From: Myxococcales bacterium
GTDB taxonomy: Bacteria; Myxococcota_A; Polyangia; Polyangiales; Polyangiaceae
Length of the DNA: 33,312 nucleotides
Reading direction: 5' to 3'
NCBI GenBank assembly: GCA_023248745.1
Contig: JAHFDZ010000031.1
Span: forward strand, 1-33,312
Shown here: positions 9,882 to 27,778 of the stretch, in pieces
How the letters are laid out: every line of letters starts with the position of its first letter
Position numbering within the stretch: the first letter of the stretch is position 1
The notes under the pieces: model-generated
What the model was told of the DNA's origin: nothing
Seen by the model: only the letters and a program-made list of their open reading frames with translations
Database searches by the model: none
Position numbers and translations under genes: made by a program

Positions 9882-10703
9882 ATGGCTTTTCGCGATCGCA
9901 TGCGCGATGGAATGAGGGCGCGCCGAACTGTTGTGTCGACAATTATGTTGACGATGTTGGTCACTTTCGCGGCCTGCAGCACCAATGGTGGCAAAGCTGA
10001 CGGCGGCGGAATCGAGAGTGATAGCGGCGGACGCGTGACTCCGTCACAAGACGCTGCGAACGACGTCGTTGTGGCCGATGCGACCAGCATGCCGCCGCCT
10101 GTTCTCGACCGACTGCAAGTCGATCTCGCCACCGCGTTTATGGCGGACGTTGGAAAAGTGGACGACATGCTTCTTGCGCAAGGTCCCGTCGTCGCTTCTG
10201 GCGACGTGCCCGCGGGCCACAACGGAGTGGCCGAACCTTCACTGCTTTTGCAGTTCCTCAATCGCGACGCAAAGGTCACCGCAGGCCTGAGCGGTACGGT
10301 GGTGTTCATCAAGGATCAGACTGCGGAAACTTGCGATTCCGAAATCAACATTGTTCCTGATGGCAACGATCTCAAGAATCCTGCGTGGGTCGTTTCGTAC
10401 GACCATGTTAAGAGCCCAACGGTGAAGGTGGGCGACAAGATTGCGGTTGGCGACATTCTTGGCACGCCTGGATCGGTATTCAACAGTTGCGATGGACCTG
10501 GTCGCGTTGAACTTCAAATCAACGATCAAAAAACCGGCCTCGCGCACTGTCCGTTAACTTTCTTGACTACATCTGCCCAGACGTCTTCGAAGACGTCGCT
10601 CAAGGTCTTGATGGAGAGCTGGAACAAGACGGCGGGAAAGACAATTTACGATCAAGCGCACGTCGACGGAGCGGGTTGCATGGCTGAGACAACCAAACCG
10701 TAG
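9882..10703 (+). CDS. Lipoprotein with a degenerate LytM/M23-like segment
   Basis: This 273-residue protein has a signal with the lipobox TFAAC (Cys32) and a Gly/Asp/Ser-rich linker typical of Polyangia lipoproteins. A segment at 171-198 (VSYDHVK...VKVGDKIAVGDILGTPGS) resembles the core of M23/LytM peptidases, in which a Gly-Asp turn precedes a G..G loop. Where the active enzymes carry the final metal-binding HxH, this protein has GRVELQI (207-213), so peptidase activity is unlikely. It may be a non-catalytic cell-wall or protein-binding domain. Start codons at 9882, 9900 and 9912 are all in frame, and none has a good ribosome site. Confidence 0.72.
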   Translation: MAFRDRMRDGMRARRTVVSTIMLTMLVTFAACSTNGGKADGGGIESDSGGRVTPSQDAANDVVVADATSMPPPVLDRLQVDLATAFMADVGKVDDMLLAQGPVVASGDVPAGHNGVAEPSLLLQFLNRDAKVTAGLSGTVVFIKDQTAETCDSEINIVPDGNDLKNPAWVVSYDHVKSPTVKVGDKIAVGDILGTPGSVFNSCDGPGRVELQINDQKTGLAHCPLTFLTTSAQTSSKTSLKVLMESWNKTAGKTIYDQAHVDGAGCMAETTKP

Positions 10704-10803: not shown

Positions 10804-11988
10804 ATGGGAAGTCTCGTGCAAAATTCAGCATCTACACCTTCGCCGATTCGTTCAGCAATCGACCAAGCGTGCCATGGCCTCGTTGACCGCGAAGCTTTGG
10901 TTGAACTCGTTGTTTTGTGTGCGGTTGCGGGCGAGCACCTGCTGGTTGTCGGACCACCGGGAACGGCCAAGAGTGAGGCAGTGCGGCGCATTGCGCGCCT
11001 TCTTGGCGGACGTTACTTCGAATACTTGGTCGGCCGCTTCACGGAACCCACTGAGCTCTTTGGGCCCATCAATCTTCGCAAGTTGAAGGAAGGCATCGTC
11101 GAAACCGAAACGACTGGCATGTTGCCTGAAGCCGAGATCGCGTTTCTCGACGAAGTGTTTCTCGGTTCAACCGCCATCCTCAACACACTCTTGGGCATTC
11201 TGAACGAGCGCACCTTTCGACGCGGTCATTCTGTGGTGCAGTGTCCGCTTCGTGTCTGTGTGGGCGCTTCCAATCGTCTTCCGGAAGACGAACAACTCGC
11301 GGCGTTTGCAGATCGCTTTCTCGTGCACGTGTTTGTCGAGCCTGTCCGCGATTCGGCGCTCGAAGAGTTGCTTGCGGCAGGTTGGTCGTTGCGTTCTGCC
11401 GAAACGCGAACCGTTGCATCCGTCGCCGACCTCGATGCGCTCATGAAAACCGCGCGTGCAATGGATCTCGCGCCGGTGCGTCCAGTGCTTGCGCAAGCGG
11501 TGCGTCTACTGCGTGCTACCGGTATTGTTGATCTCACCGATCGCCGCGTGGTGCGCGTGCAGCGACTCATTGCAGCGGCGGCGGCGCTCTCGGGACGGTT
11601 GCAGCCGACAGAAAGTGATCTGTGGCCGGTCATTTTTGCGCTGCCCTCGTCCGAAGCGCAACGATTGGGTCGAGAAGCCCTTCGTGACTTGCTCCACGTG
11701 TCCGAAAACGGCAGCTTACTCGCAGCGGCTGCGGAAGCGTCGCTCGGGCCGTTGGCGCAAGGCGCAAAAATTCTAAAAGAAGGAACGGCGATCTTGGCCT
11801 CGCGACCCGAGACCGAAAAAGGTCAAGTGGCTTGGCGATTGCAGGTCGAAGGCGTCGCGCGCGAAATCGACGCAACCTTCACGCCTGTCACCTTGCCTCA
11901 AGATCTCGCAGAGCTCCGTACGCAAGTGGTGGGCATTCTCGAATCGGCGCGAGCCCCAAAGGCCACCTCGCCCGTCGAAGCGTCGTAA
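10804..11988 (+). CDS. MoxR/RavA-type AAA+ ATPase, first gene of a bpX ternary system
   Basis: The 394-residue ATPase has Walker A GPPGTAKS (50-57), Walker B IAFLDE (112-117), a sensor-1 Asn in GASNRLP (about 157) and the conserved ILNTLLGILNERTFRRG region. The sequence between the Walker motifs (FEYLVGRFTEPTELFGPI) closely follows the RavA branch of the MoxR family. MoxR ATPases work as chaperone-like remodelers together with vWA-domain proteins. Here the next genes supply a bpX5-like protein, a vWA-like/propeller protein and a phosphatase fusion, and the four probably form one transcript. An in-frame TAG directly precedes ATG 10804, so the start cannot lie further upstream; no strong ribosome site is seen. 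The C-terminal third (about 290-394) holds a small beta-rich region that may bind the partners. Confidence 0.92.
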   Translation: MGSLVQNSASTPSPIRSAIDQACHGLVDREALVELVVLCAVAGEHLLVVGPPGTAKSEAVRRIARLLGGRYFEYLVGRFTEPTELFGPINLRKLKEGIVETETTGMLPEAEIAFLDEVFLGSTAILNTLLGILNERTFRRGHSVVQCPLRVCVGASNRLPEDEQLAAFADRFLVHVFVEPVRDSALEELLAAGWSLRSAETRTVASVADLDALMKTARAMDLAPVRPVLAQAVRLLRATGIVDLTDRRVVRVQRLIAAAAALSGRLQPTESDLWPVIFALPSSEAQRLGREALRDLLHVSENGSLLAAAAEASLGPLAQGAKILKEGTAILASRPETEKGQVAWRLQVEGVAREIDATFTPVTLPQDLAELRTQVVGILESARAPKATSPVEAS

Positions 11989-11992
11989 CGCG

Positions 11993-12421
11993 ATGTCGCT
12001 GTTGCGTGTTGCGTTTGTCTCCCGCGAGGTTGCTCTCGCGCCTTTGTGCGTGGGCGGTCTTGGCGACGTTGCGCGTGCACTCGCAAGGTGGGTGCTGCGT
12101 GACGACGGGCCACGACTGAGTGAACTCCGTGGTGTTGCTGCAAACGACGTTTTGTTGCTGATGGGTGCAGCCGAAACGCTGCCGTGGGTCGATGGCGTAT
12201 TCTATCTCGGCAAAGACCCCCACGCGCCGCGTTTGCTATTGCCCACACAGCTTCGCCCCGACGTGCCGCTAGCAGCGTTTGAGCAGGCGATCGTTCGCCA
12301 CGTCGGTGAACTCGAATCGCCAATCGCTGTCCTCGCTCATCCGTGCAAGTTGATTCCTTTGGCCGAGGCGCGCCCAGTGAATCGAGAACGTCTCGCGGCG
12401 TGGCTCAAAGGTGCGTCGTGA
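11993..12421 (+). CDS. Small bpX5-like protein of a MoxR-vWA-beta-propeller system
   Basis: The 142-residue protein contains WVDGVFYLGKDPHAPRLLLP (65-84) followed by a LRPDVP element and a C-terminal helix. This pattern matches what I know of the bpX5 domain named from MoxR-vWA-beta-propeller ternary systems; the family number is from memory and should be checked. It lies four bases after the ATPase and its stop overlaps the next start (GTGA), so it is part of the same operon and is probably translated in step with the vWA-like protein. It has no signal peptide and should be cytoplasmic. Its biochemical role is unknown. Confidence 0.75.
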   Translation: MSLLRVAFVSREVALAPLCVGGLGDVARALARWVLRDDGPRLSELRGVAANDVLLLMGAAETLPWVDGVFYLGKDPHAPRLLLPTQLRPDVPLAAFEQAIVRHVGELESPIAVLAHPCKLIPLAEARPVNRERLAAWLKGAS

Positions 12422-14214
12422 CCGAGCTTCCAAAGTCGCTCGCGCCATGGGCAAGACAGTTGACTATTTTCCCGCCAAGCGTCGCGCCCGGTCTGGGCGG
12501 CCTCGTATCGCGCATGTCGGGCATCCTTGGTGCGTGGGGACAACAGCGAGCGCATGTCGGTTCAGTCGACGGCATCAATGGCATCTCGCGTCGTGGAACC
12601 TACGACAGGTTGCTCCTTAGCGAGTGGTTGCTGCACGACGAGATTCCCGACGAGTTCATGCGACGCGTCGTTTCGCATGAGCATTCATTCCTTGATCGCG
12701 CATTCAAGCAAGAATCAATAACAAGGCATTGCTTGGTCCTCTTTGATGCGGGTGTCGAGCAACTCGGCGGTCCGCGCATTGTGCAACTGGCAGGGCTCAT
12801 CGCGCTCGCGCAACGCGCAGAGACTGCTGGCGCAACCTTGTCGTGGGGCGTGCTTCAAGAGGGATCGTGCACGCTTCAAAGCGACGTGACGAAAGCGAAC
12901 GTGACCGAACTTATGCGCGCGCGATGTACGATGCGGCCTTCGCTTGCCGATCTCGATCGTTGGCATGCGGTTGTGAGCGCTACGAAGCACTCTGAACTTT
13001 GGCTTGTGGGATCAGCGTCGCTCGGTGACGAAGCGTCAAAACGACGTGCGTGGCATCTCGAAGTATCCGAACTGCTTGAGCCACGCGCGAGCGATGCAAG
13101 TGAGCGTGTCGTTGTCAGAGCGATCGTGCCCAAGGCATCGAAAGCCCGCGAAGTGACGCTCGAGCTTCCGCCGCCCCGCACGTCGGTGCAGCTGCTTCGC
13201 GATCCATTCTCAATGGCCGTGGTCATGCGCATGGTCACGAAAACAAGCATTGATCCTGCTACAAACTTTGTTTTCTCACGTGACGGTCGAATGCTCTTTG
13301 TTCGCGGATCCGAAGGGACGTTGCTCACATTTCAAATTCCCAATTCACCGCGCGCGAAGGCAAGTGCGCCGGCAGTTTTTGCGCCACCTGACGAGCACCG
13401 CATCCTTGCCGTCGGTCGATCGCGCTCGAATCGCAAGACGTTTCTTGTCACACGATGTGGCGACGCCATGTTTGTTCACGTTCACTCCAAACGCGGTGGG
13501 CAATCGCGCGAACCGATACGCATCTCACTCCCGGCGGACTATCCAGGGCATGTCGAGGGCAAGCTCGCCTCTTTGGCCACGCCCGCCGAAGGTCAGACGT
13601 GCTTCGTTGATCCACACGGCAATCTTGTTCACGTCGCCCACAACGTATTCGGGATCGAAGACACGGCATGCGTGAGTGAATCCAAGGTTGTGCACAGCGG
13701 CCTTGTGTACATAACCGCTTCGGCTGGCAGGCGAGCTCTTGTGACCGCACGGGTGTCGGACGACGGAGTCTTCAGGAAAATCCAATCGACGATCGATCTC
13801 TCCGGCGTCAGTCTCGACTTTCATGCCTTCTTGGGTGCGCCAGAGTCGCATCAGCTCGTCGCGTACGCACGATCAGCGTCGTCGTGGACGGTCGTGCGCA
13901 ACGACCAGTGCATGAAATGGCATGTGCCCGAAGGACGCAAAGTCGTCGGTGTGATTGAACGTGGACATGCCCCGACTGAAGTCCTGCTTGTGACGCTCGA
14001 CGCATCCCGTATGCACATCCGGCTCCACGGCCGCGAATTGAAAGGTGGATCGGTTGTTTTAGAGACCATCGTGACGACGGTGTCTCCGATTGTTCATGTG
14101 GCGGCGAGTGGCCTATCGCCCGTCGTCGCCTATCTGACGGAGTCCGGTGAACTTTGTGTTTATTCGGTTCTCCAAAAGGCCGTCGTTCTGCGCGTCGCAC
14201 CCGAGGCGCCGTGA
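12418..14214 (+). CDS. vWA-like domain plus beta-propeller protein of the MoxR system
   Basis: The start is GTG 12418, overlapping the preceding stop by four bases (GTGA); the open frame further upstream lies within the bpX5-like gene. Residues 45-200 show a vWA-like pattern: SRRGTYDRLLLSEW (57-70), then CLVLFDAGVEQLGG (105-118), where a normal MIDAS has DxSxS. Here it reads D110-A-G-V-E114, so the metal site is probably degenerate. From about residue 270 to the end are propeller-like blades (TNFVFSRDGRMLFVRGSEGTLL and others), which would act as a protein-binding platform. The 598-residue protein is cytoplasmic and presumably the adaptor partner of the MoxR ATPase. Its stop again overlaps the next start by GTGA. 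Confidence 0.83.
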   Translation: MTELPKSLAPWARQLTIFPPSVAPGLGGLVSRMSGILGAWGQQRAHVGSVDGINGISRRGTYDRLLLSEWLLHDEIPDEFMRRVVSHEHSFLDRAFKQESITRHCLVLFDAGVEQLGGPRIVQLAGLIALAQRAETAGATLSWGVLQEGSCTLQSDVTKANVTELMRARCTMRPSLADLDRWHAVVSATKHSELWLVGSASLGDEASKRRAWHLEVSELLEPRASDASERVVVRAIVPKASKAREVTLELPPPRTSVQLLRDPFSMAVVMRMVTKTSIDPATNFVFSRDGRMLFVRGSEGTLLTFQIPNSPRAKASAPAVFAPPDEHRILAVGRSRSNRKTFLVTRCGDAMFVHVHSKRGGQSREPIRISLPADYPGHVEGKLASLATPAEGQTCFVDPHGNLVHVAHNVFGIEDTACVSESKVVHSGLVYITASAGRRALVTARVSDDGVFRKIQSTIDLSGVSLDFHAFLGAPESHQLVAYARSASSWTVVRNDQCMKWHVPEGRKVVGVIERGHAPTEVLLVTLDASRMHIRLHGRELKGGSVVLETIVTTVSPIVHVAASGLSPVVAYLTESGELCVYSVLQKAVVLRVAPEAP

Positions 14215-17200
14215 CTTCAACCTTGCGCCCAAGACAGCGCGTTCATCGGGGCTCGGTGCTCGCGGCAGGCGTTCTTGTGGACACGGCGCTCATCGGTGCC
14301 GCCGAAGCGCGTCGCCGAGTTCTTTCGCTGCACGAACAGTGTCTTGATGTATTTGAAATAGGGAAGTTTCTTGTCGTTCGATTCCGTGCGGCCACGCGCG
14401 TCGATTGTGGCGAGTCGATCGGAACTCCGCTCGTGCACTACGATGCGCTCTATTCAACGGCGCCGCTCGATGTCGACGAAGTGCGCTTGCTCTCAGGTGG
14501 CTCCGAAGCGGTCGTGATTGTTCAAGGGGGCGTTGCGTCCACTTTCCCGCTCGCTGCAAGCGACCGACGAGACGTCTCGCTTTGGTTCGATGTGTCCGAC
14601 TTCGAAGTGGAGCGCGCAGCCGTCTCGCTTGGCGAAATTGCGTCAACGGCCGTTGCGCAATTCGAAGAACACCCCGCGGATATTCGCGCGCCGCTCAATG
14701 TCGCGCCGTTCTCAGCAGAGGGTGCCGCTCTGGTTGCTTCGCTGGCCAAAGGCGAACTCGTATCATCGTCGTCGCCATCGCGAGGGCTTCGGGCGTTCAC
14801 GTCTGCTCTTGCGGTGATCCTCCGCGCGTTCGGAAGCCTTATCTCGGCGTTCGTCAAGCATGTTGATAAAATCGAAGGAGTCGATACTCGCAGTTTGCCG
14901 CCTGCGGAACCTCCGTGGTTCCAGAAAGCGCGCGCGCGTCTGCAGTTTGCCGCTGCGCGCCTTCTTGCGTGGACAAGGCTCGACGCACTCATTGGCCGTC
15001 AATACGCAAGACACTTGACTCAATTGGTCGCGATGCTCGACGCGCACGATTTCGACGCTGCCCTTCGGCACGCTATTCCACTCAACGCTGAGCTTGAGAA
15101 TGCGCTTAAGCCACCTGCGTTGAGTGCGCCTTCTCCAAGGGCATCGCTGGCGATCGCACCGCATCGCACCGCTGCAAGCAGTACGATTGGGCTTGGCGAC
15201 AGTATTTTCGACCTGCTGAAGAAGAAGTATCGGCGCGCTTTTGAGCGGCTGGTTGAGCAGGGCGACATCGACAAGGCTGCATTTGTGCTCGCCGAATTGC
15301 TCAATGCAAGCGAAGAGGCCGTCTCGTTTCTCGAGCGTCATGGCCGGTATCGCCTTGCGGCCGAGATTGCCGAAGCGCGAAAGTTGCCCGCGGGCATCAT
15401 CATTCGCCAATGGTTTCTCGCAGGCGACAAGGCGCGCGCCGTTCAAGTCGCGCGCCGAACGGGCGCATTCGCAGATGCCGTGACAAGGCTCGAACGAACT
15501 CACAAAGACGAAGGTCGATCCCTTCGACTGCTCTGGGCTGACATGTTGGCAACCGCCGGAGCCTATGCCGCAGCTGTGGACGCGGTGTGGCCGATTGAGG
15601 CAGCGCGCCCGTTGGCGAAGGCATGGATCGATCGTGCCATTGCGGTCGGCGGCGTCACGGGTGCGCGCATGCTCGTGAGAAAAGTCCGCGCATTTCCTGA
15701 CACGTTCACAGACGTTCGCGATCGGGTGCTCGCGCTTCTCGCTGCGGAAGACACAACCTTCGCTGATGCCATCGGTCGAGAGGTGCTTGCTGCGTCGATC
15801 GACGCGTCGACACGTGTGATCGCAAAAATCGTTGCGCGTGCGGTGATAGGTAAGCGAATTGACCATGCGTCCGAGCACTTGGTGCGACACCTTCTCGAGG
15901 CCTCATGCGATGCAGCTTTTCGCGCTGATGTTGCCGCATGCAACGAGGTTGATGCGAAGTCGTCGTCGCGAGAAGTGGATGTCTGTGCATTCGGCGTGAC
16001 TCACATCGGTAAGAAGCGGCGCGAGAATGAGGACGGATGCGTCGCCACGCTGCTTCGAGGTGAACCGTCCGCACACGATGCGACCGCATTCGTGGGTTTT
16101 GACCGAAGCAATGGTGTCCTGCTGGGCGCGTTCGACGCCTCTGGCGGAAGTGCCGTCGGCGACTCCTGCGCGAAGCTTGCCGCGAACACGATTTTCACCT
16201 CATTGAAGGACACCTTCAACAGCGCGAGTTGGGACGTCGACCGGTGTGGCCGCGGCTTGGTCGACGCGGTGGTGCGAGCGAACCAAGCGATCGCGCTTGG
16301 CGCAAGCGAGAATGAGTCGCTTTGCGGCATGGCATGCGAGGCCACCGTAGCTTCGATTGCTGGCGACACGCTTGTCGTCGCGCAAGTGGGTACGACGCGT
16401 GGCTATCTTCTGCGCGACAGGCGGTTGGTGCAGCTCACGCGCGATCACTCGCTTCTCAACGACTGGATTGATGCGGGACATGCGCAGACGCCGGAAGAGA
16501 TCGAAGCGTTCCCCCACAAGCACGTCGTGATGCGTGCGCTGGGAGTGAAGCGCGAGGTCTCCGTCGATCTTCTGCGCGTACCGCTTAACAAGGAGGATGT
16601 GATCCTTCTTTGTTCTGACGGCTTGTCGTCGGTTATCGACGATGCACGCATTCGTGATGTGCTGGGCATCCACACGTCGCCACGGCCTGCGTGCGAGGCC
16701 TTGCTTTCAATGGCGCTTGACGCCGGCGCACCCGATAACATTGCCATCGTGGTTGCGTACGTGGGCAATGGACTGCCATCGGGCGCGCCTGTTCGGGTCA
16801 CAAAAGTCGACGGTCAGATGTCTTCTTCCGACCCCATCCGCGTCACACGCGAAGTCGCCGATGCGGGCGCGATTCCGGTCTTTGAGGCCGCTGAACTTCC
16901 CGATGGTCGCATGCTCGTGGCGCTCGGTGAAATCGGTGCGTGGGTTCTCTCGCGCGACGGCAAAGTGCAGGTGCGCTTCATCGAGCCGGCATCCCAAATT
17001 GTAATGTCCGATCACGGCGATCGCGCGATTGTGAGCGCGGCAAGGGGAACTGCCCATCGACTTGCGAAGATCGACCTGCGGACGAATCGCGTCGAGCCGT
17101 GGTGTGACGCGCTGATCGGGACCTTTGCGCACACCTTTGATGGATCGACATGGCTCGTCGCCAGTGACAACGAAGTCTTTGCGATCGATGCGACGTCTAC

Positions 17201-17765
17201 GGGGTGGGAACACATTTGGAACGTGCAACATGACGATGGGGGCACGGTGTCGAACATTGAGCGCGACGCTCATCGTTTTTGTGTCTCGTTCGTTCCGCCG
17301 CCGACCGCGGCGTCGCGCGCAAGCCAACTCTCGATATTCGAACATTCCTTTGCCCTGCGCAGGCGAATCGACGTTGAAACCGCTTGGATGCGCGTTCAGC
17401 ACTACGGCCTTTCACCCGCAGGGGTGATTGCGAGTTCTTACCGCGACGAAAACGGTGTGAACGTGCCATGCGTCTTTGTTGACGGTAATTGGAAGAATCT
17501 ACCGCTGACGTCTTCGCAAAATTCACGTGGGGCCATCGTGACCGATGCGTGGCTCGCTTATCCTTTCGTCACGTCAACCGGAATGGCTGTGCACTTGTAT
17601 GACGTCAAGACCCTGTCCGAACGGCTCATCCTTCGGCTCGAGGGAAGCGAAGACGCTTATGTGCGGATCGATGGCGATCGCCTTGTCGTCGCTGACACGT
17701 GTGGACGCGTGCTCGTGATTGCGTTGGATACGGGTGCCGTTCTCCGCGAATTTCGCGTCTCTTAG
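14211..17765 (+). CDS. bpX6-like / helical-repeat / PP2C phosphatase / beta-propeller fusion
   Basis: GTG 14211 overlaps the previous stop (GTGA). Four parts can be seen in 1184 residues. An N-terminal domain (about 1-150; RPRQRVHRGSVLAAGVLVD) resembles bpX6. A long alpha-helical region (about 240-585) looks like TPR-type repeats. A PPM/PP2C phosphatase (about 590-852) carries KKRRENED (Asp608), FDASGG (Asp642), LCSDGL (Asp803) and APDNIAIVV (Asp842), which are the expected metal ligands; the usual DGMGG is DASGG. The C-terminal part (about 870-1184) has propeller blades. It should be a cytoplasmic phosphoserine/threonine phosphatase, acting on a component of the complex or an unknown client. 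No kinase is encoded in the window. The family placement of the first domain is less sure than the phosphatase. Confidence 0.88.
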   Translation: MTSTLRPRQRVHRGSVLAAGVLVDTALIGAAEARRRVLSLHEQCLDVFEIGKFLVVRFRAATRVDCGESIGTPLVHYDALYSTAPLDVDEVRLLSGGSEAVVIVQGGVASTFPLAASDRRDVSLWFDVSDFEVERAAVSLGEIASTAVAQFEEHPADIRAPLNVAPFSAEGAALVASLAKGELVSSSSPSRGLRAFTSALAVILRAFGSLISAFVKHVDKIEGVDTRSLPPAEPPWFQKARARLQFAAARLLAWTRLDALIGRQYARHLTQLVAMLDAHDFDAALRHAIPLNAELENALKPPALSAPSPRASLAIAPHRTAASSTIGLGDSIFDLLKKKYRRAFERLVEQGDIDKAAFVLAELLNASEEAVSFLERHGRYRLAAEIAEARKLPAGIIIRQWFLAGDKARAVQVARRTGAFADAVTRLERTHKDEGRSLRLLWADMLATAGAYAAAVDAVWPIEAARPLAKAWIDRAIAVGGVTGARMLVRKVRAFPDTFTDVRDRVLALLAAEDTTFADAIGREVLAASIDASTRVIAKIVARAVIGKRIDHASEHLVRHLLEASCDAAFRADVAACNEVDAKSSSREVDVCAFGVTHIGKKRRENEDGCVATLLRGEPSAHDATAFVGFDRSNGVLLGAFDASGGSAVGDSCAKLAANTIFTSLKDTFNSASWDVDRCGRGLVDAVVRANQAIALGASENESLCGMACEATVASIAGDTLVVAQVGTTRGYLLRDRRLVQLTRDHSLLNDWIDAGHAQTPEEIEAFPHKHVVMRALGVKREVSVDLLRVPLNKEDVILLCSDGLSSVIDDARIRDVLGIHTSPRPACEALLSMALDAGAPDNIAIVVAYVGNGLPSGAPVRVTKVDGQMSSSDPIRVTREVADAGAIPVFEAAELPDGRMLVALGEIGAWVLSRDGKVQVRFIEPASQIVMSDHGDRAIVSAARGTAHRLAKIDLRTNRVEPWCDALIGTFAHTFDGSTWLVASDNEVFAIDATSTGWEHIWNVQHDDGGTVSNIERDAHRFCVSFVPPPTAASRASQLSIFEHSFALRRRIDVETAWMRVQHYGLSPAGVIASSYRDENGVNVPCVFVDGNWKNLPLTSSQNSRGAIVTDAWLAYPFVTSTGMAVHLYDVKTLSERLILRLEGSEDAYVRIDGDRLVVADTCGRVLVIALDTGAVLREFRVS

Positions 17766-20189: not shown

Positions 20190-20942
20190 TTATCGCAACA
20201 ACCGCTCAAACGTGGCGGTTCGGAGCACAATTTTCGCCGCAATTGCTGCGGCCACCAGGTACAAAGCTGACAGGCCCAAAGCGCGAACGGGCCCGGCAGG
20301 CAGAAGTGTCCCAATCGCCATCGTCGCAATCATTGACGGTCCCAGCATGGCGCCCGCGATGTTGTTCGCAGTTCGAAAGTCTCGCGCGGCGACACCCAGC
20401 AGGAGCGCTGCGGTTGTCGCGTATGCCAATACGCATGCGAGGAGTGCCGGAAGCGCAATCACGTCCACAATCGCGCCGGATCCGCGGAGCGGAAAAACGA
20501 TCATGTCGAGAATGAGGATCGGGAGTGTAAAACAGAGCGTCGCTGCGAGAACGGCAAGGAGCTTTGCTTCCAGTACTTTTTCGATTCGAACGGGCAAGGC
20601 GACGAGCAATTCGAGCGTTCGCTGTTCGCGTTCGTTGGTGAGCAAGTGCGTGGCAAGCATCGACGGCAATACGAGACCGACCATGCAAATGAAGAGTGGC
20701 AACACGGCGACTGGCAGGCGCCTTGGATCTTGGTCAATTTCCTGAAGCAATCCGACGCTCAGCGAATGCGGTAGCTGCGCAACCTTCGATGGGGCTGGGC
20801 TTGCGACCGCCGCGCCCATGATCTGCGGCACAACACCCAAGAGCAGACCAGGAAGCAGAAGACTCGTGGCCATCGCGCTCTTGCTCGCGGTGAGCTGGCG
20901 CCATTCTTTGCGAAAGAGTGTCGATAATTGAGAGTTGCTCAC
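20190..20942 (-). CDS. ABC-2 type transporter permease
   Basis: The 250-residue protein has about six hydrophobic segments (roughly 26-44, 78-100, 126-150, 160-185, 196-215 and 222-240). Between the second and third lies the cytoplasmic motif TNEREQRTLELL (102-113), which is typical of ABC-2/NatB-like permeases and contacts the ATPase. The start is GTG 20942, overlapping the stop of the upstream ATPase gene (GTGA), so the two are translated together. The substrate is unknown; NatAB-like exporters and small-molecule resistance exporters share this shape. Confidence 0.88.
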   Translation of the reverse strand: MSNSQLSTLFRKEWRQLTASKSAMATSLLLPGLLLGVVPQIMGAAVASPAPSKVAQLPHSLSVGLLQEIDQDPRRLPVAVLPLFICMVGLVLPSMLATHLLTNEREQRTLELLVALPVRIEKVLEAKLLAVLAATLCFTLPILILDMIVFPLRGSGAIVDVIALPALLACVLAYATTAALLLGVAARDFRTANNIAGAMLGPSMIATMAIGTLLPAGPVRALGLSALYLVAAAIAAKIVLRTATFERLLR

Positions 20943-22666
20943 TCTTGTGCCTTCGTCTTTCCAATAGATGCAGCTTCAGCGGTTCTCACCGTTTCGATGA
21001 AAAGCGCTTCGAGCGTCGGTCGCAAGATCCGGCATTCGCAAACGTCGACGCCTTGCTCAAGCAGTGTCCGCAGCATGTGCGGAGCTCCTTGTGCGCCTTG
21101 AGGGAAAGCGATCGTGACTTCCTGGGTGTCATCCGTCTCTTGGACTGTGTGACCTTGTGCCTCGAGCGCGCGCCTGAGCGGTGCGACGTCGCCAACAGTG
21201 CGCAGCGCAAGCATGGGGGTCGATTGCTTTCGCAACTCGGCGATCGATTGATGCAGGAGCACACGGCCGGCGCGCAGAATGATCACGGAGTCGCAAAGTT
21301 TTTCGGCTTCGTCGAGATCGTGCGTGCAGAGCAGCGTCGTGCGCCCCTCGCTCACGTCTTTGAGCAGCTCGATCATTTCGTGTGCGGCGATGGGATCAAG
21401 GCCCGCCGAAGGCTCGTCGAGAATGAGAAGATCGGGGCTCGAAAGAAGCGCCGCCGCAAGCGAGAGTCGGCGTTGCATTCCACCCGAGAGCGTCGCGCTC
21501 GAGCGGTCCATCACGTCCCCGAGCGAGAGTCGATCGATCAGGTGTTCGTAAGGTTCTGATCCGTAAATTTCTTTGACGAAGTCCAGGTACTGTCGGCATG
21601 TCATTTCGCGGTACATGCCGGCCTGCTGCGGAACGACACCGACGCGTCTTTTTGCGACGAGAAATTGATCATCTTCGGCGTTGGACCCGAAAAGAAACGC
21701 CCAGCCATTTGTGGGTGCGAGCGCGCCATTGACGATGCGGATCGCGGTCGTTTTTCCCGCGCCATTGGGGCCGAGGAGACAGACGCGCTCTCCTCGCTTG
21801 ACCATAACGCTCACGCCGCGCAGCGCGTGGACATCGCCGAAACTTTTCTCGACCTCGACGAACTCGATGGGCTCACCCGAAGACTCGGGACGTGTCGACG
21901 CTTGTGCGTCGCTCAGTACGGCGAACTGTTTCATGTTTGCGCCAATGATAAGCAGGTTGATGGGCAAGCATACGGCTAGCCACACCTCTGACATGACAGC
22001 GCCAAACTTGGAAAAGGTCCACACGACCCCAGCGTCGAGAATCGTGTGCCACGCAATTGCAACAACGAGCAAAAGCGGCCGACGTTTCGCGATCGACGCC
22101 ATCACCAAAGTCGCGGCGGCGATGTGAAATGGGATCGTCATCAAACGCTCGAGTGCGCCAAGAAGGACGAGCCACGGCGATGAGGTCATCCACTGGCGGA
22201 CGGCTTGCGCGTCGAGCGTCGAAAGCCCTAAGTTATCGACCCCAAATCGCTGCAAGTAAAGGACGTTGAACGCTGCAGACGCTGCGAACAAACCCACGAA
22301 GATCGATTCAATGCCGCCGTGACCTGCGCCAAACATGAGCGCATGAGGACCTGTGCGAAAGTTGCGAAGTGCGAATCGAAGGGCGACGAAGCGCGCCACT
22401 TCTTCGCAGACCCCCGCGCTGAGACCGAGAAGCAGCGCATGATAGGCGACTCGCGTCCCGCTTGAGAGATGCGTGCTCAACACCATCACGCGCGGAAGTA
22501 CAAAGTGATTCAACGGCAGGTGTGCGGCTTGTGACCCCGCAAACGTGAGCGCGCCGGCGGTAAACAACCACCATGAAAGCGTCCATCGCTTGCGAAGTTG
22601 GATGGCAAGCAACAACGGCGCCGCGATGACGATCACGCATTGAAGGAGAAACGCTGCGGCGAGCAT
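20939..22666 (-). CDS. YhfC/CPBP-like intramembrane protease domain fused to an ABC transporter ATPase
   Basis: Residues 1-250 form a polytopic membrane domain with the intramembrane-protease-like motifs EEVARFVALR (88-97), GAGHGGIES (113-121) and WHTILDAGVV (206-215). These are the Glu-Glu and His positions expected in YhfC and related CPBP families. Residues 265-480 are a full ABC ATPase: GPNGAGKTT (299-307), signature LSGGMQRR (393-400), Walker B LLILDEP (413-419) and a switch His in CTHDLDEAE. A C-terminal domain like that of NatA and CcmA ends the protein. GAGGAG lies just upstream of ATG 22666. With the permease gene it makes one exporter whose ATPase carries its own membrane domain. 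Protease activity is inferred from motifs only. Confidence 0.88.
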   Translation of the reverse strand: MLAAAFLLQCVIVIAAPLLLAIQLRKRWTLSWWLFTAGALTFAGSQAAHLPLNHFVLPRVMVLSTHLSSGTRVAYHALLLGLSAGVCEEVARFVALRFALRNFRTGPHALMFGAGHGGIESIFVGLFAASAAFNVLYLQRFGVDNLGLSTLDAQAVRQWMTSSPWLVLLGALERLMTIPFHIAAATLVMASIAKRRPLLLVVAIAWHTILDAGVVWTFSKFGAVMSEVWLAVCLPINLLIIGANMKQFAVLSDAQASTRPESSGEPIEFVEVEKSFGDVHALRGVSVMVKRGERVCLLGPNGAGKTTAIRIVNGALAPTNGWAFLFGSNAEDDQFLVAKRRVGVVPQQAGMYREMTCRQYLDFVKEIYGSEPYEHLIDRLSLGDVMDRSSATLSGGMQRRLSLAAALLSSPDLLILDEPSAGLDPIAAHEMIELLKDVSEGRTTLLCTHDLDEAEKLCDSVIILRAGRVLLHQSIAELRKQSTPMLALRTVGDVAPLRRALEAQGHTVQETDDTQEVTIAFPQGAQGAPHMLRTLLEQGVDVCECRILRPTLEALFIETVRTAEAASIGKTKAQE

Positions 22667-25982: not shown

Positions 25983-27557
25983 TTAGAGTGCGCGAACCAA
26001 TTTGGCGCTCATGCTCACGGTTGCGCCCTTGGCCACGCGCACTCCTATGTAGTAGCTCGCCCCGCTCGCGCCTGTTGTCACTGTGCAAGCTTCGTCTGCG
26101 GTTGGTCCAGTTGATTTACAATTGAACGCTGTGGCGCTCGGGTACGATCCCTCGCGCACGTAGAGGTCTGCGTCACCCTTGCCGGTCATCGTGATGGTGA
26201 CCGTTGTTTTCTCTGGAGCGCCGAGCACGAGGTAGTTCGAGTCGCCTGAGAGCGTGGCGTCACTCAGCAAGATGCGCGTTTCGGTGAGCTGCTTCGGATC
26301 AGCTGCGAGCGCGGTGAGCGTCTTGATGTCCGCGTAGGTGATCATGCCGTTGATAGCCGTCTTGGGATCAGACGTTGGCCACCACGCAAAGTCGGGCTGT
26401 CCGCTACCATCTTTGCCGATCACCCACTGACCACTTAGAATGCGATCGTCTGCGCCGACCGCGAGGATGTAGCGGAAGTGGACCACTTCCGTCAGCTTGG
26501 CCTGATCTTGGACCTCGCGGGATGCGCGTCCAACTTTCGGATACAGAAGGTCGGTCTCGACATCGAAGAATCGCTTCGCAAGTGCGTTTGCGACGGTGCT
26601 CGAATTCGGTCCGAGAATTTTGTCTGCGTCTTGCTTGGAGATTTCGGCGAGGTGGCCGTCCTTCGCGTTCGTGACTTTGAATCCTGAAACGGGTTGGTTC
26701 CAAACTTCGGAGCCCGTGAAGCGCTCGGTGGGTTGGTTCCAAACTTCGGAGCCTGTAAAGCGCTCGGTGGGTTGGTTCCAAACTTCCGAACCCGTGAAGC
26801 GATCGTAGACGAAGCCCTGGTGTCGAACGCCAATGACGTTGGTCATGAGGACGTGCCAAGCGCCTGCATCGCTCACGCGGCATTGTTTTGCTGCGCTGCC
26901 GCTTTGATTCGTAACTTTTGTTGCGTTATTTCCGCACGAGCTGGGCAACGCTTGCGACTTTACCTCGCCCTCGGCGTACAAGGCGCCTCTCAGCGCTTCG
27001 ATGTCTGCACGATAAAATGTAACACCGTTGTATACGATCGAGTCTGCGATCGAGGGTTCGTGGACTGTGGCTGACGCAATGCCGTGGCAAATTCCCCACC
27101 AAGTCGGAACGCACGCCTTCACTTTTCCACTGCCGACGCAGACCGAGCCATCGTTGCTTGCGGCGCAGTCGCTCGTGGTTTTGCAAACTGGGCGATTGTG
27201 CACGGATGCAGTACCGAGCTTGGCGCTCACTGCCGCAGCGAATCCTCTGCGATTGAACGCAAGCTCGAATTTTTCGGCAGGCGACATCGATTTCTCGCCG
27301 TCCCATCGTCGGTTGACGCTGTCTTCGGCGGTTGACCAGTAGTCCGAAGCGAGCGGCGACAGCTGAGGTGCACCTTCGACGGGCAGGCTTGTGGCTTCGT
27401 AGATGAAGCTCGAGCCGATGTACGAAGCAGGGTGATTCGCGCGCTCCCATTCGGTTGCGGCTGCTTCGGTTGCGGTGCCGTCGGCTTCGATGGGTGACGC
27501 AACACAACCGAAGGGAATGGCGAGGGCGAACAGAGAAACAAGACGCTTTTTCGGCAT
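25983..27557 (-). CDS. Elicitor-type transglutaminase-like lipoprotein with C-terminal prepeptidase-like domain
   Basis: The 524-residue protein has a lipoprotein signal (IPFGC, Cys18). It then has a Cys-rich motif (about 124-150) and a papain-like transglutaminase core with WWGICHG (catalytic Cys157), GAWHVLMTN (His235) and VYDRFTG (Asp252). WWG.C.G.A is the hallmark of the elicitor-like transglutaminase group. The VWNQP element that follows the Asp occurs three times in tandem (see repeat). A C-terminal beta-domain (about 415-524; DADLYVREG and ASYYIGVRVAKGATV) looks like a bacterial prepeptidase C-terminal domain. It probably crosslinks or hydrolyses amide bonds at the cell surface. ATG 27557 was chosen; a TTG five codons earlier is in frame. 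Confidence 0.85.
   Translation of the reverse strand: MPKKRLVSLFALAIPFGCVASPIEADGTATEAAATEWERANHPASYIGSSFIYEATSLPVEGAPQLSPLASDYWSTAEDSVNRRWDGEKSMSPAEKFELAFNRRGFAAAVSAKLGTASVHNRPVCKTTSDCAASNDGSVCVGSGKVKACVPTWWGICHGIASATVHEPSIADSIVYNGVTFYRADIEALRGALYAEGEVKSQALPSSCGNNATKVTNQSGSAAKQCRVSDAGAWHVLMTNVIGVRHQGFVYDRFTGSEVWNQPTERFTGSEVWNQPTERFTGSEVWNQPVSGFKVTNAKDGHLAEISKQDADKILGPNSSTVANALAKRFFDVETDLLYPKVGRASREVQDQAKLTEVVHFRYILAVGADDRILSGQWVIGKDGSGQPDFAWWPTSDPKTAINGMITYADIKTLTALAADPKQLTETRILLSDATLSGDSNYLVLGAPEKTTVTITMTGKGDADLYVREGSYPSATAFNCKSTGPTADEACTVTTGASGASYYIGVRVAKGATVSMSAKLVRAL
26691..26807 (-). repeat. Three tandem 39-bp repeats inside the transglutaminase gene
   Basis: The units are at 26691-26729, 26730-26768 and 26769-26807. 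Each encodes 13 residues, RFTGSEVWNQP plus a two-residue joint, and the reading frame is kept. The first two copies on this strand differ at two bases and the third differs by a few more; the RFTGSEVWNQP core is unchanged in all three. Confidence 0.92.
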
Positions 27558-27778
27558 GGGTGATGCTTTCAATCCTTGGACGCGGGCGGTGTAACACCCG
27601 ACGACGTGTGGCGCAAACGGCAGAGACGCGACGGACGCGACCGTTTCTGTGCCGCTAGCGTTCGATGAGTGGTTCGATCGCGGGACGAATCACGCTCGCC
27701 CATTGCGCATGCCGGTCAACCCCTGATGTTGACGAAGGGTGCAGCAATTAATGGGAGATGGGGTTGTCGGCGAGAGGA

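Follow-up and report, generated by a model that had tools for sequence, protein, structure and literature searches.

What might a PP2C phosphatase domain do inside a predicted AAA+ remodelling machine? This question is raised by a four-gene operon in a 33,312-nucleotide stretch of DNA from a Myxococcales bacterium (GenBank assembly GCA_023248745.1, contig JAHFDZ010000031.1, positions 1 to 33,312; hereafter the window). The operon encodes a MoxR-type AAA+ ATPase (gene 1), the small protein bpX5 (gene 2), a protein ending in a beta-propeller (gene 3) and a third component (gene 4), in which a bpX6 domain, a linker and a helical solenoid are followed by the PP2C domain and a second propeller (Table 1). 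As judged from sequence, the likeliest answer, which we hold at about even confidence, is that the PP2C insert serves as a reader of phosphorylated Ser/Thr or as a natural substrate trap, with little or no turnover. We prefer this to an ordinary phosphatase because the metal pair is kept, the third metal is lost, and the domain is changing rapidly.

The ternary system and its PP2C insertion

Matches to the Pfam bpMoxR, bpX5 and bpX6 families identify the locus, with near certainty, as a MoxR-vWA-beta-propeller ternary system, which is a known kind, suspected of being directed against viruses. An earlier note made from the DNA alone had proposed this identity, and the bpX family numbers that it gave also prove correct (bpX5 is PF19921 and bpX6 is PF19922). 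As described by Kaur et al. (eLife 2020, PMC7159879), such systems combine a MoxR protein carrying a GXXXTAKS P-loop, a vWA component that ends in a propeller, and a third component whose variable N-terminus is accompanied by TPRs and a propeller. Extra small conserved genes occur in some of them, and the systems were termed enigmatic, neither a conventional effector nor a sensor domain being recognisable in them. The window locus resembles subsystem 4 of that paper in its GXXXTAKS MoxR, its propeller-ended adaptor, its extra small conserved protein, its occurrence in Myxococcota, and its third component, which is built of a globular domain at the N-terminus, helical repeats and a propeller at the C-terminus. 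It differs in two respects. First, the third component here contains a PP2C, which the main text of the paper does not mention for this subsystem. Second, the propeller here resembles a full WD40-type propeller, as opposed to one of ‘about four blades’.

The 91 loci in which all four genes were found span at least five phyla, and none departs from the common order and orientation, showing an arrangement beyond chance; the median junctions are +2, −4 and −4 nucleotides. Homologous loci therefore keep the genes together, a point on which the earlier note had staked its proposal. Scanning 84,980 species genomes with profiles yielded 80 loci, which belong to Myxococcota, Acidobacteriota, Armatimonadota, Pseudomonadota, Melainabacteria and further groups, and family searches, which added loci, found bpX6 to be patchy (16 of 284 sampled genomes of the phylum and 20 of 184 of the order). 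The system was not found in phages, and plasmids gave only two partial gene 3 matches. A PADLOC search with the system of the window returned no meaningful match, and our literature search found no experimental paper naming bpMoxR or bpX families.

The PP2C is the part of gene 4 that sets the window apart from most of its relatives. In the alignment, ~260 residues of PP2C occupy precisely the place where solenoid and propeller meet. In the 14 other third components first aligned, the solenoid joins the propeller directly, without a PP2C, and a wider census agrees. Thus, among 101 third components with a solenoid, six end at contig ends before the insertion point, leaving ~95 that could be assessed, and PP2C is present in six of these. 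The carriers are the window, Myxococcales bacterium 68-20, Sorangium cellulosum So ce26 and three members of another single genus; they fall in a single family, which the named members show to be Polyangiaceae. The phosphatase is accordingly not the general part of the system that it had first been taken for; the fusion does recur among homologues, but among those assessed it is limited to these six proteins of one family. An assembly artefact was considered and rejected, since the fusion is seen in five other assemblies and the Sorangium and three same-genus carriers are single-contig chromosomes.

The domain matches Pfam PF00481 (2e-10) and, over residues 616–868, the Stp1-type NCBIfam model NF033484 (1.8e-45), with a score of 155 bits that lies under the 230-bit equivalog cut-off. 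Its nearest solved relative is Mycobacterium tuberculosis PstP (1txo/2cm1), by sequence (E ~1e-25) and by fold (template-modelling score 0.70–0.79). In a tree with 30 standalone PP2Cs from their own genomes, the six inserts group as a single clade (bootstrap/SH-aLRT approximate likelihood-ratio support 97/89). Furthermore, one state change suffices on the solenoid tree, with a support of 74 for all six carriers and of 98 for the five without Sorangium. By alignment and trees, then, the third component acquired its PP2C late, in keeping with a single gain. No separate PP2C gene that might have been the fusion donor was found near PP2C-less systems.

Active site and rate of change of the inserts

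PP2C residues of gene 4, such as Thr747, are numbered along the open reading frame (ORF) from 14154. The three aspartates for the M1/M2 metal pair (Asp661, Asp822 and Asp861) are kept by every one of the six inserts and also by the standalone PP2Cs, and they fall among 36 invariant columns of 240 ungapped ones (chance p ~0.003). The position of the third-metal (M3) aspartate, D118 in PstP, behaves differently. The window has Thr there, and the other inserts have Asp, Asn, Asn, Ala and Leu; thus the residue is replaced in five of six inserts, whereas all 30 standalone PP2Cs from these genomes have Asp. This contrast makes doubtful the ‘enzymatic output’ that the phosphatase had been credited with. 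Other sites are eroded as well, including the Arg of RxxNED (4/6) and the Asp of NED, which is lost in Sorangium.

Compared with Stp1/PstP-type enzymes (M. tuberculosis PstP, tPphA), the window domain has the same fold and the same M1/M2 metal aspartates, whereas it carries Thr for the M3 Asp and Ala for a Gly of DGMGG, and it sits inside a multidomain protein of an AAA+ system rather than being standalone or membrane-anchored. Mutants of other PP2C enzymes show what the M3 replacement could entail, since in them catalysis needs this Asp and phosphopeptide binding does not. PPM1A D146A and PPM1H D288A are substrate-trapping mutants (PMC8567228), and an M3-Asp mutant of PPM1B has no detectable activity but still binds phosphopeptide (PMC13142519). 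Indeed, the position altered in PPM1A D146A/E, PPM1B D151E and PPM1H D288A is the one replaced naturally here. The pseudophosphatases TAB1 and PHLPP2 are different, in that they have lost M1/M3 and bind a single metal at M2 (PMC12002173), while the inserts keep the M1/M2 aspartates.

Rates of change were computed, with dN/dS (the ratio of nonsynonymous to synonymous rates) taken from computed dN and dS, for one sister-species pair whose operons have the same downstream neighbours. Flanking genes share 94–95% amino-acid identity (dN/dS 0.07–0.10) and MoxR 93% (0.09), followed by the N-terminal part of gene 3 (88%, 0.11), bpX5 (83%, 0.29), the solenoid (83%, 0.18), bpX6 (79%, 0.21), the gene 4 propeller (79%, 0.22) and the gene 3 propeller (71%, 0.39). 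The PP2C insert, at 66% identity and a dN/dS of 0.28, is by identity the fastest-changing folded domain. In the same species pair, the tree distance between inserts is 0.62, versus ~0.02–0.04 for standalone PP2C orthologues. All dN/dS values are below 1, so that the insert, though fast-changing, appears to be under purifying selection.

Possible functions of the insert

In the mechanism we propose, the MoxR AAA+ hexamer would hydrolyse ATP and remodel an assembly of the gene 3 adaptor and the third component, while bpX5 would have an accessory role. Contact between their propellers would probably hold the gene 3 and gene 4 products together, as Kaur et al. suggest. An Stp1-type PP2C, presumably inserted once and in one lineage at the solenoid-propeller hinge, could there bind a phosphorylated ligand and so alter the geometry; phosphoprotein binding would then be passed to a MoxR-driven change of the complex, giving the insert a possible sensing role in responses to conflict or stress. 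We infer, in this scheme, complex formation, phosphoprotein binding, weak catalysis and a role in conflict. Its fullest version, that the captured PP2C is a non-catalytic phospho-Ser/Thr receptor of an AAA+ conflict system, gates MoxR-driven remodelling and diversifies as a sensor would, is advanced tentatively.

Ser/Thr phosphorylation is extensive in myxobacteria. The variant described here gives the enigmatic, widespread ternary systems one interpretable domain at a defined hinge, together with a sharp residue-level prediction (metal pair kept, third-metal Asp lost), and Sorangium cellulosum So ce26 is a cultured carrier. If the insert does bind phosphoproteins without turnover, it would offer a first handle on what beta-propeller ternary machines sense and would link AAA+ conflict systems to Ser/Thr phosphorylation.

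Several points weigh against this reading. The conflict function is a comparative-genomics proposal only (PMC7159879), and PADLOC, as noted, does not recognise the system. Within the gene 4 model, the PP2C region is predicted less confidently than the remainder (predicted local confidence, pLDDT, mostly 45–85), and the dN/dS figures come from a single species pair. As to catalysis, the insert of Myxococcales bacterium 68-20 retains the M3 Asp, and the Asn at this position in two inserts could still coordinate metal. SpoIIE, in which Ser takes the M3 position and the flap is reduced, is an active phosphatase of the PP2C type (PMC3517971), and a survey relays views of M3 as non-essential in bacterial PP2Cs (PMC12088040).

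The first alternative concerns the whole system, and is compatible with any reading of the PP2C: the machine might be a housekeeping assembly chaperone, similar to NorQ/NorD or RavA/ViaA, in which the PP2C is merely regulatory. We regard this as a real possibility, although somewhat short of an even chance. Those MoxR-vWA pairs that have been characterised act as assembly chaperones (reviewed in PMC7159879), and the lack of matches in phages and in the defence library agrees with such a role. So does the matching of ordinary MoxR proteins by the bpMoxR profile. This profile alone is not diagnostic, and it also finds matches in 12 of 14 control genomes. A second strong match in the window's own genome (252 bits; G000:C122, L042:4110-5402) lies between an amidase gene and TsaD/Lon genes, from which we deduce that the Pfam model also catches ordinary MoxR proteins. 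Disagreeing with a housekeeping role, however, the distribution is patchy, the flanks are not conserved and no client gene is conserved alongside; the fast-changing gene 3 and gene 4 products beside a slow MoxR also look more like a conflict system.

The second alternative, which we consider less likely than the reader, again from sequence, is that the PP2C is active with altered kinetics, is switched on by the complex, and removes phosphate from a client or from subunits of the system itself. The invariance of the M1/M2 aspartates would suit it, as would the 68-20 insert, the possible coordination by Asn and the precedent of SpoIIE. Nevertheless, the M3 Asp is missing from most inserts and from no standalone relative, the erosion extends to the RxxNED motif, and the inserts are by profile Stp1-type, a type whose M3 mutants lose activity. 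In addition, a partner kinase gene is not conserved nearby. A motif scan of the fetched flanks found no Ser/Thr kinase conserved beside the operon; motifs were seen at one of the six PP2C-bearing loci and at ~8 other loci, the former in Sorangium, ~5 kb away and on the opposite strand. The earlier note had suggested a Ser/Thr phosphorylation switch; a kinase for it encoded nearby finds no backing in these neighbourhoods, and the four genes themselves are the sole ones common to all six PP2C-bearing loci. The GTPase-centric GAP1-N2 conflict systems (PMC7159879) likewise have a PP2C in a predicted conflict system, but theirs has a gene of its own that is paired with a kinase, whereas here it is embedded and unpaired.

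A third alternative, that the PP2C is a decaying, structural or decoy pseudo-enzyme that does not bind phosphoproteins (it might, for instance, lure an invader protein directed at the PP2Cs of the host), would fit the fast evolution of the insert and the use of inactive enzyme domains as decoys or effectors in related VMAP systems (Kaur et al., PMC7159879), but we consider it improbable, because conservation of the three M1/M2 aspartates in inserts that have diverged to 31–45% pairwise identity (window, 68-20 and Sorangium), together with the dN/dS of 0.28, suggests that metal binding is retained under selection.

Component proteins and surroundings of the operon

The MoxR protein carries the P-loop GPPGTAKS and the Walker B motif FLDE, and shows 52–74% identity across 21 homologues. 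The same P-loop is present in more than 90% of the homologues and fits the GXXXTAKS variant reported for the beta-propeller subsystem.

Gene 3 had been described as vWA-like with a propeller, and the two halves of this description fare differently. The sequence alone has no match in Pfam, NCBIfam or PADLOC. Searched against the Protein Data Bank (PDB), a profile of its 50-member family matches WD40 propellers (E=4.4e-19), and the model has a propeller at its C-terminus (VIA Z 15.8–17.3), so that the C-terminal propeller expected of the ternary system is present. For the N-terminal part, by contrast, profile comparisons (hhalign) with the VWA_2 and VWA_CoxE sets and the PDB profile search were all negative, while vWA-versus-vWA controls worked (2e-19 and 1.5e-12). 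A structural search with the gene 3 model was dominated by propellers and barely probed the N-terminal domain. According to the alignment and the model, this domain is alpha/beta and has, following its first central strand, a conserved DAG.xQLG.PR and an Asp that is nearly invariant. The vWAs of the beta-propeller subsystem are divergent and may lack the Asp of the metal ion-dependent adhesion site (Kaur et al. 2020, PMC7159879).

In gene 4, the bpX6 profile is matched by 38 of 38 homologues. The solenoid is the best-conserved portion of the product, and TPR_GEMI5 of Pfam matches in 8 of the 38. The N-terminal globular domain, TPR and propeller that define a third component are thus all represented, by the bpX6 profile, the modelled solenoid and propeller, and TPR_GEMI5. 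A membrane-spanning segment is likewise expected of a third component; the helix in the linker is weakly hydrophobic, with a maximal 19-residue hydropathy of 1.77 in the window and values above 1.6 in only 9 of 38 homologues.

Table 1. Features of the operon in the window
Feature	Position	Strand	Basis or remark
Gene 1, MoxR-type AAA+ ATPase (bpMoxR)	10804..11988	+	Pfam PF20030, E=1.1e-86
Gene 2, bpX5, small protein	11993..12421	+	Pfam PF19921, E=2e-26
Gene 3, ‘vWA-type’ component	12418..14214	+	50-member family alignment; AlphaFold pLDDT 87
Gene 3 alpha/beta domain, candidate degenerate vWA	12688..13167	+	AlphaFold topology and alignment
Gene 3 WD40-like beta-propeller, C-terminal	13240..14205	+	Family profile against PDB; AlphaFold model
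Gene 4, third component (bpX6, linker, helical solenoid, PP2C, propeller)	14211..17765	+	Profiles and model
bpX6 domain	14229..14705	+	Pfam PF19922, E=7.3e-20; pLDDT ~92
Linker with amphipathic/hydrophobic helix, possible membrane contact	14790..14870	+	Model helix 194-220, low confidence
TPR-like alpha-solenoid	14916..15959	+	Model residues 236-583, pLDDT mostly >90
PP2C (Stp1/PstP-type) domain, in solenoid-propeller linker	15987..16769	+	Profiles, fold
Asp661 codon, M1/M2 metal Asp (FDASGG)	16134..16136	+	Invariant in 6/6 inserts
Thr747 codon at M3-metal Asp position (VGTTR, not VGDSR)	16392..16394	+	Alignment to PstP
Asp822 codon, metal Asp (CSDG)	16617..16619	+	Invariant in 6/6 inserts
Asp861 codon, metal Asp (PDN)	16734..16736	+	Invariant in 6/6 inserts
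Gene 4 C-terminal beta-propeller	16824..17762	+	Model residues ~872-1184, pLDDT ~90; fold search matches propellers

The ORFs and a direct reading of the sequence agree with the first description of the layout, namely four co-directional genes, a 4-base gap between genes 1 and 2 (CGCG, 11989-11992), and two GTGA overlaps, between genes 2 and 3 (12418-12421) and between genes 3 and 4 (14211-14214). Genes 3 and 4 each start with GTG. Gene coupling and a propeller on both large proteins make a physical complex of the four products plausible; a fixed stoichiometry, however, does not follow from gene overlaps. A promoter scan found no sigma-70-like site, and terminator matches did not exceed the chance level. 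Upstream of the operon, a lipoprotein-like ORF (9882-10703, + strand) has a weak M23 peptidase match and is not kept beside the operon elsewhere.

In Corallococcus and Archangium, the gap between the MoxR and bpX5 genes holds varying extra genes (L062:6755-7666, L056:1756-2664), and gaps of 1.6–3.4 kb at this place occur in L049, L050, L052, L058, L061, L064 and L077. The extra genes include a TsiV-type type VI immunity protein (1.8e-39) and a DUF2381 protein. The gap may be a cargo slot of the operon in these two genera. The system of Comamonas sp. KCTC 72670 (L069) nests among Myxococcus sequences, with a solenoid-tree support of 99, and would reflect either contamination or recent transfer. 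Of two sister species with otherwise common flanks (L150 and L149), one carries ~5 kb of additional DNA immediately upstream of the operon.

Elsewhere in the window, all on the minus strand, one ORF (20939-22666) fuses a YhfC intramembrane metalloprotease domain to an ATP-binding cassette (ABC) transporter ATPase with a DrrA-like C-terminus; a second region (25983-27572) combines a Transglutaminase-elicitor domain (PF16683, 4e-55) with a pre-peptidase C-terminal domain; and a third (245-1582) contains repeats of the Chlamydia polymorphic membrane protein type (PF02415, 1.8e-11).

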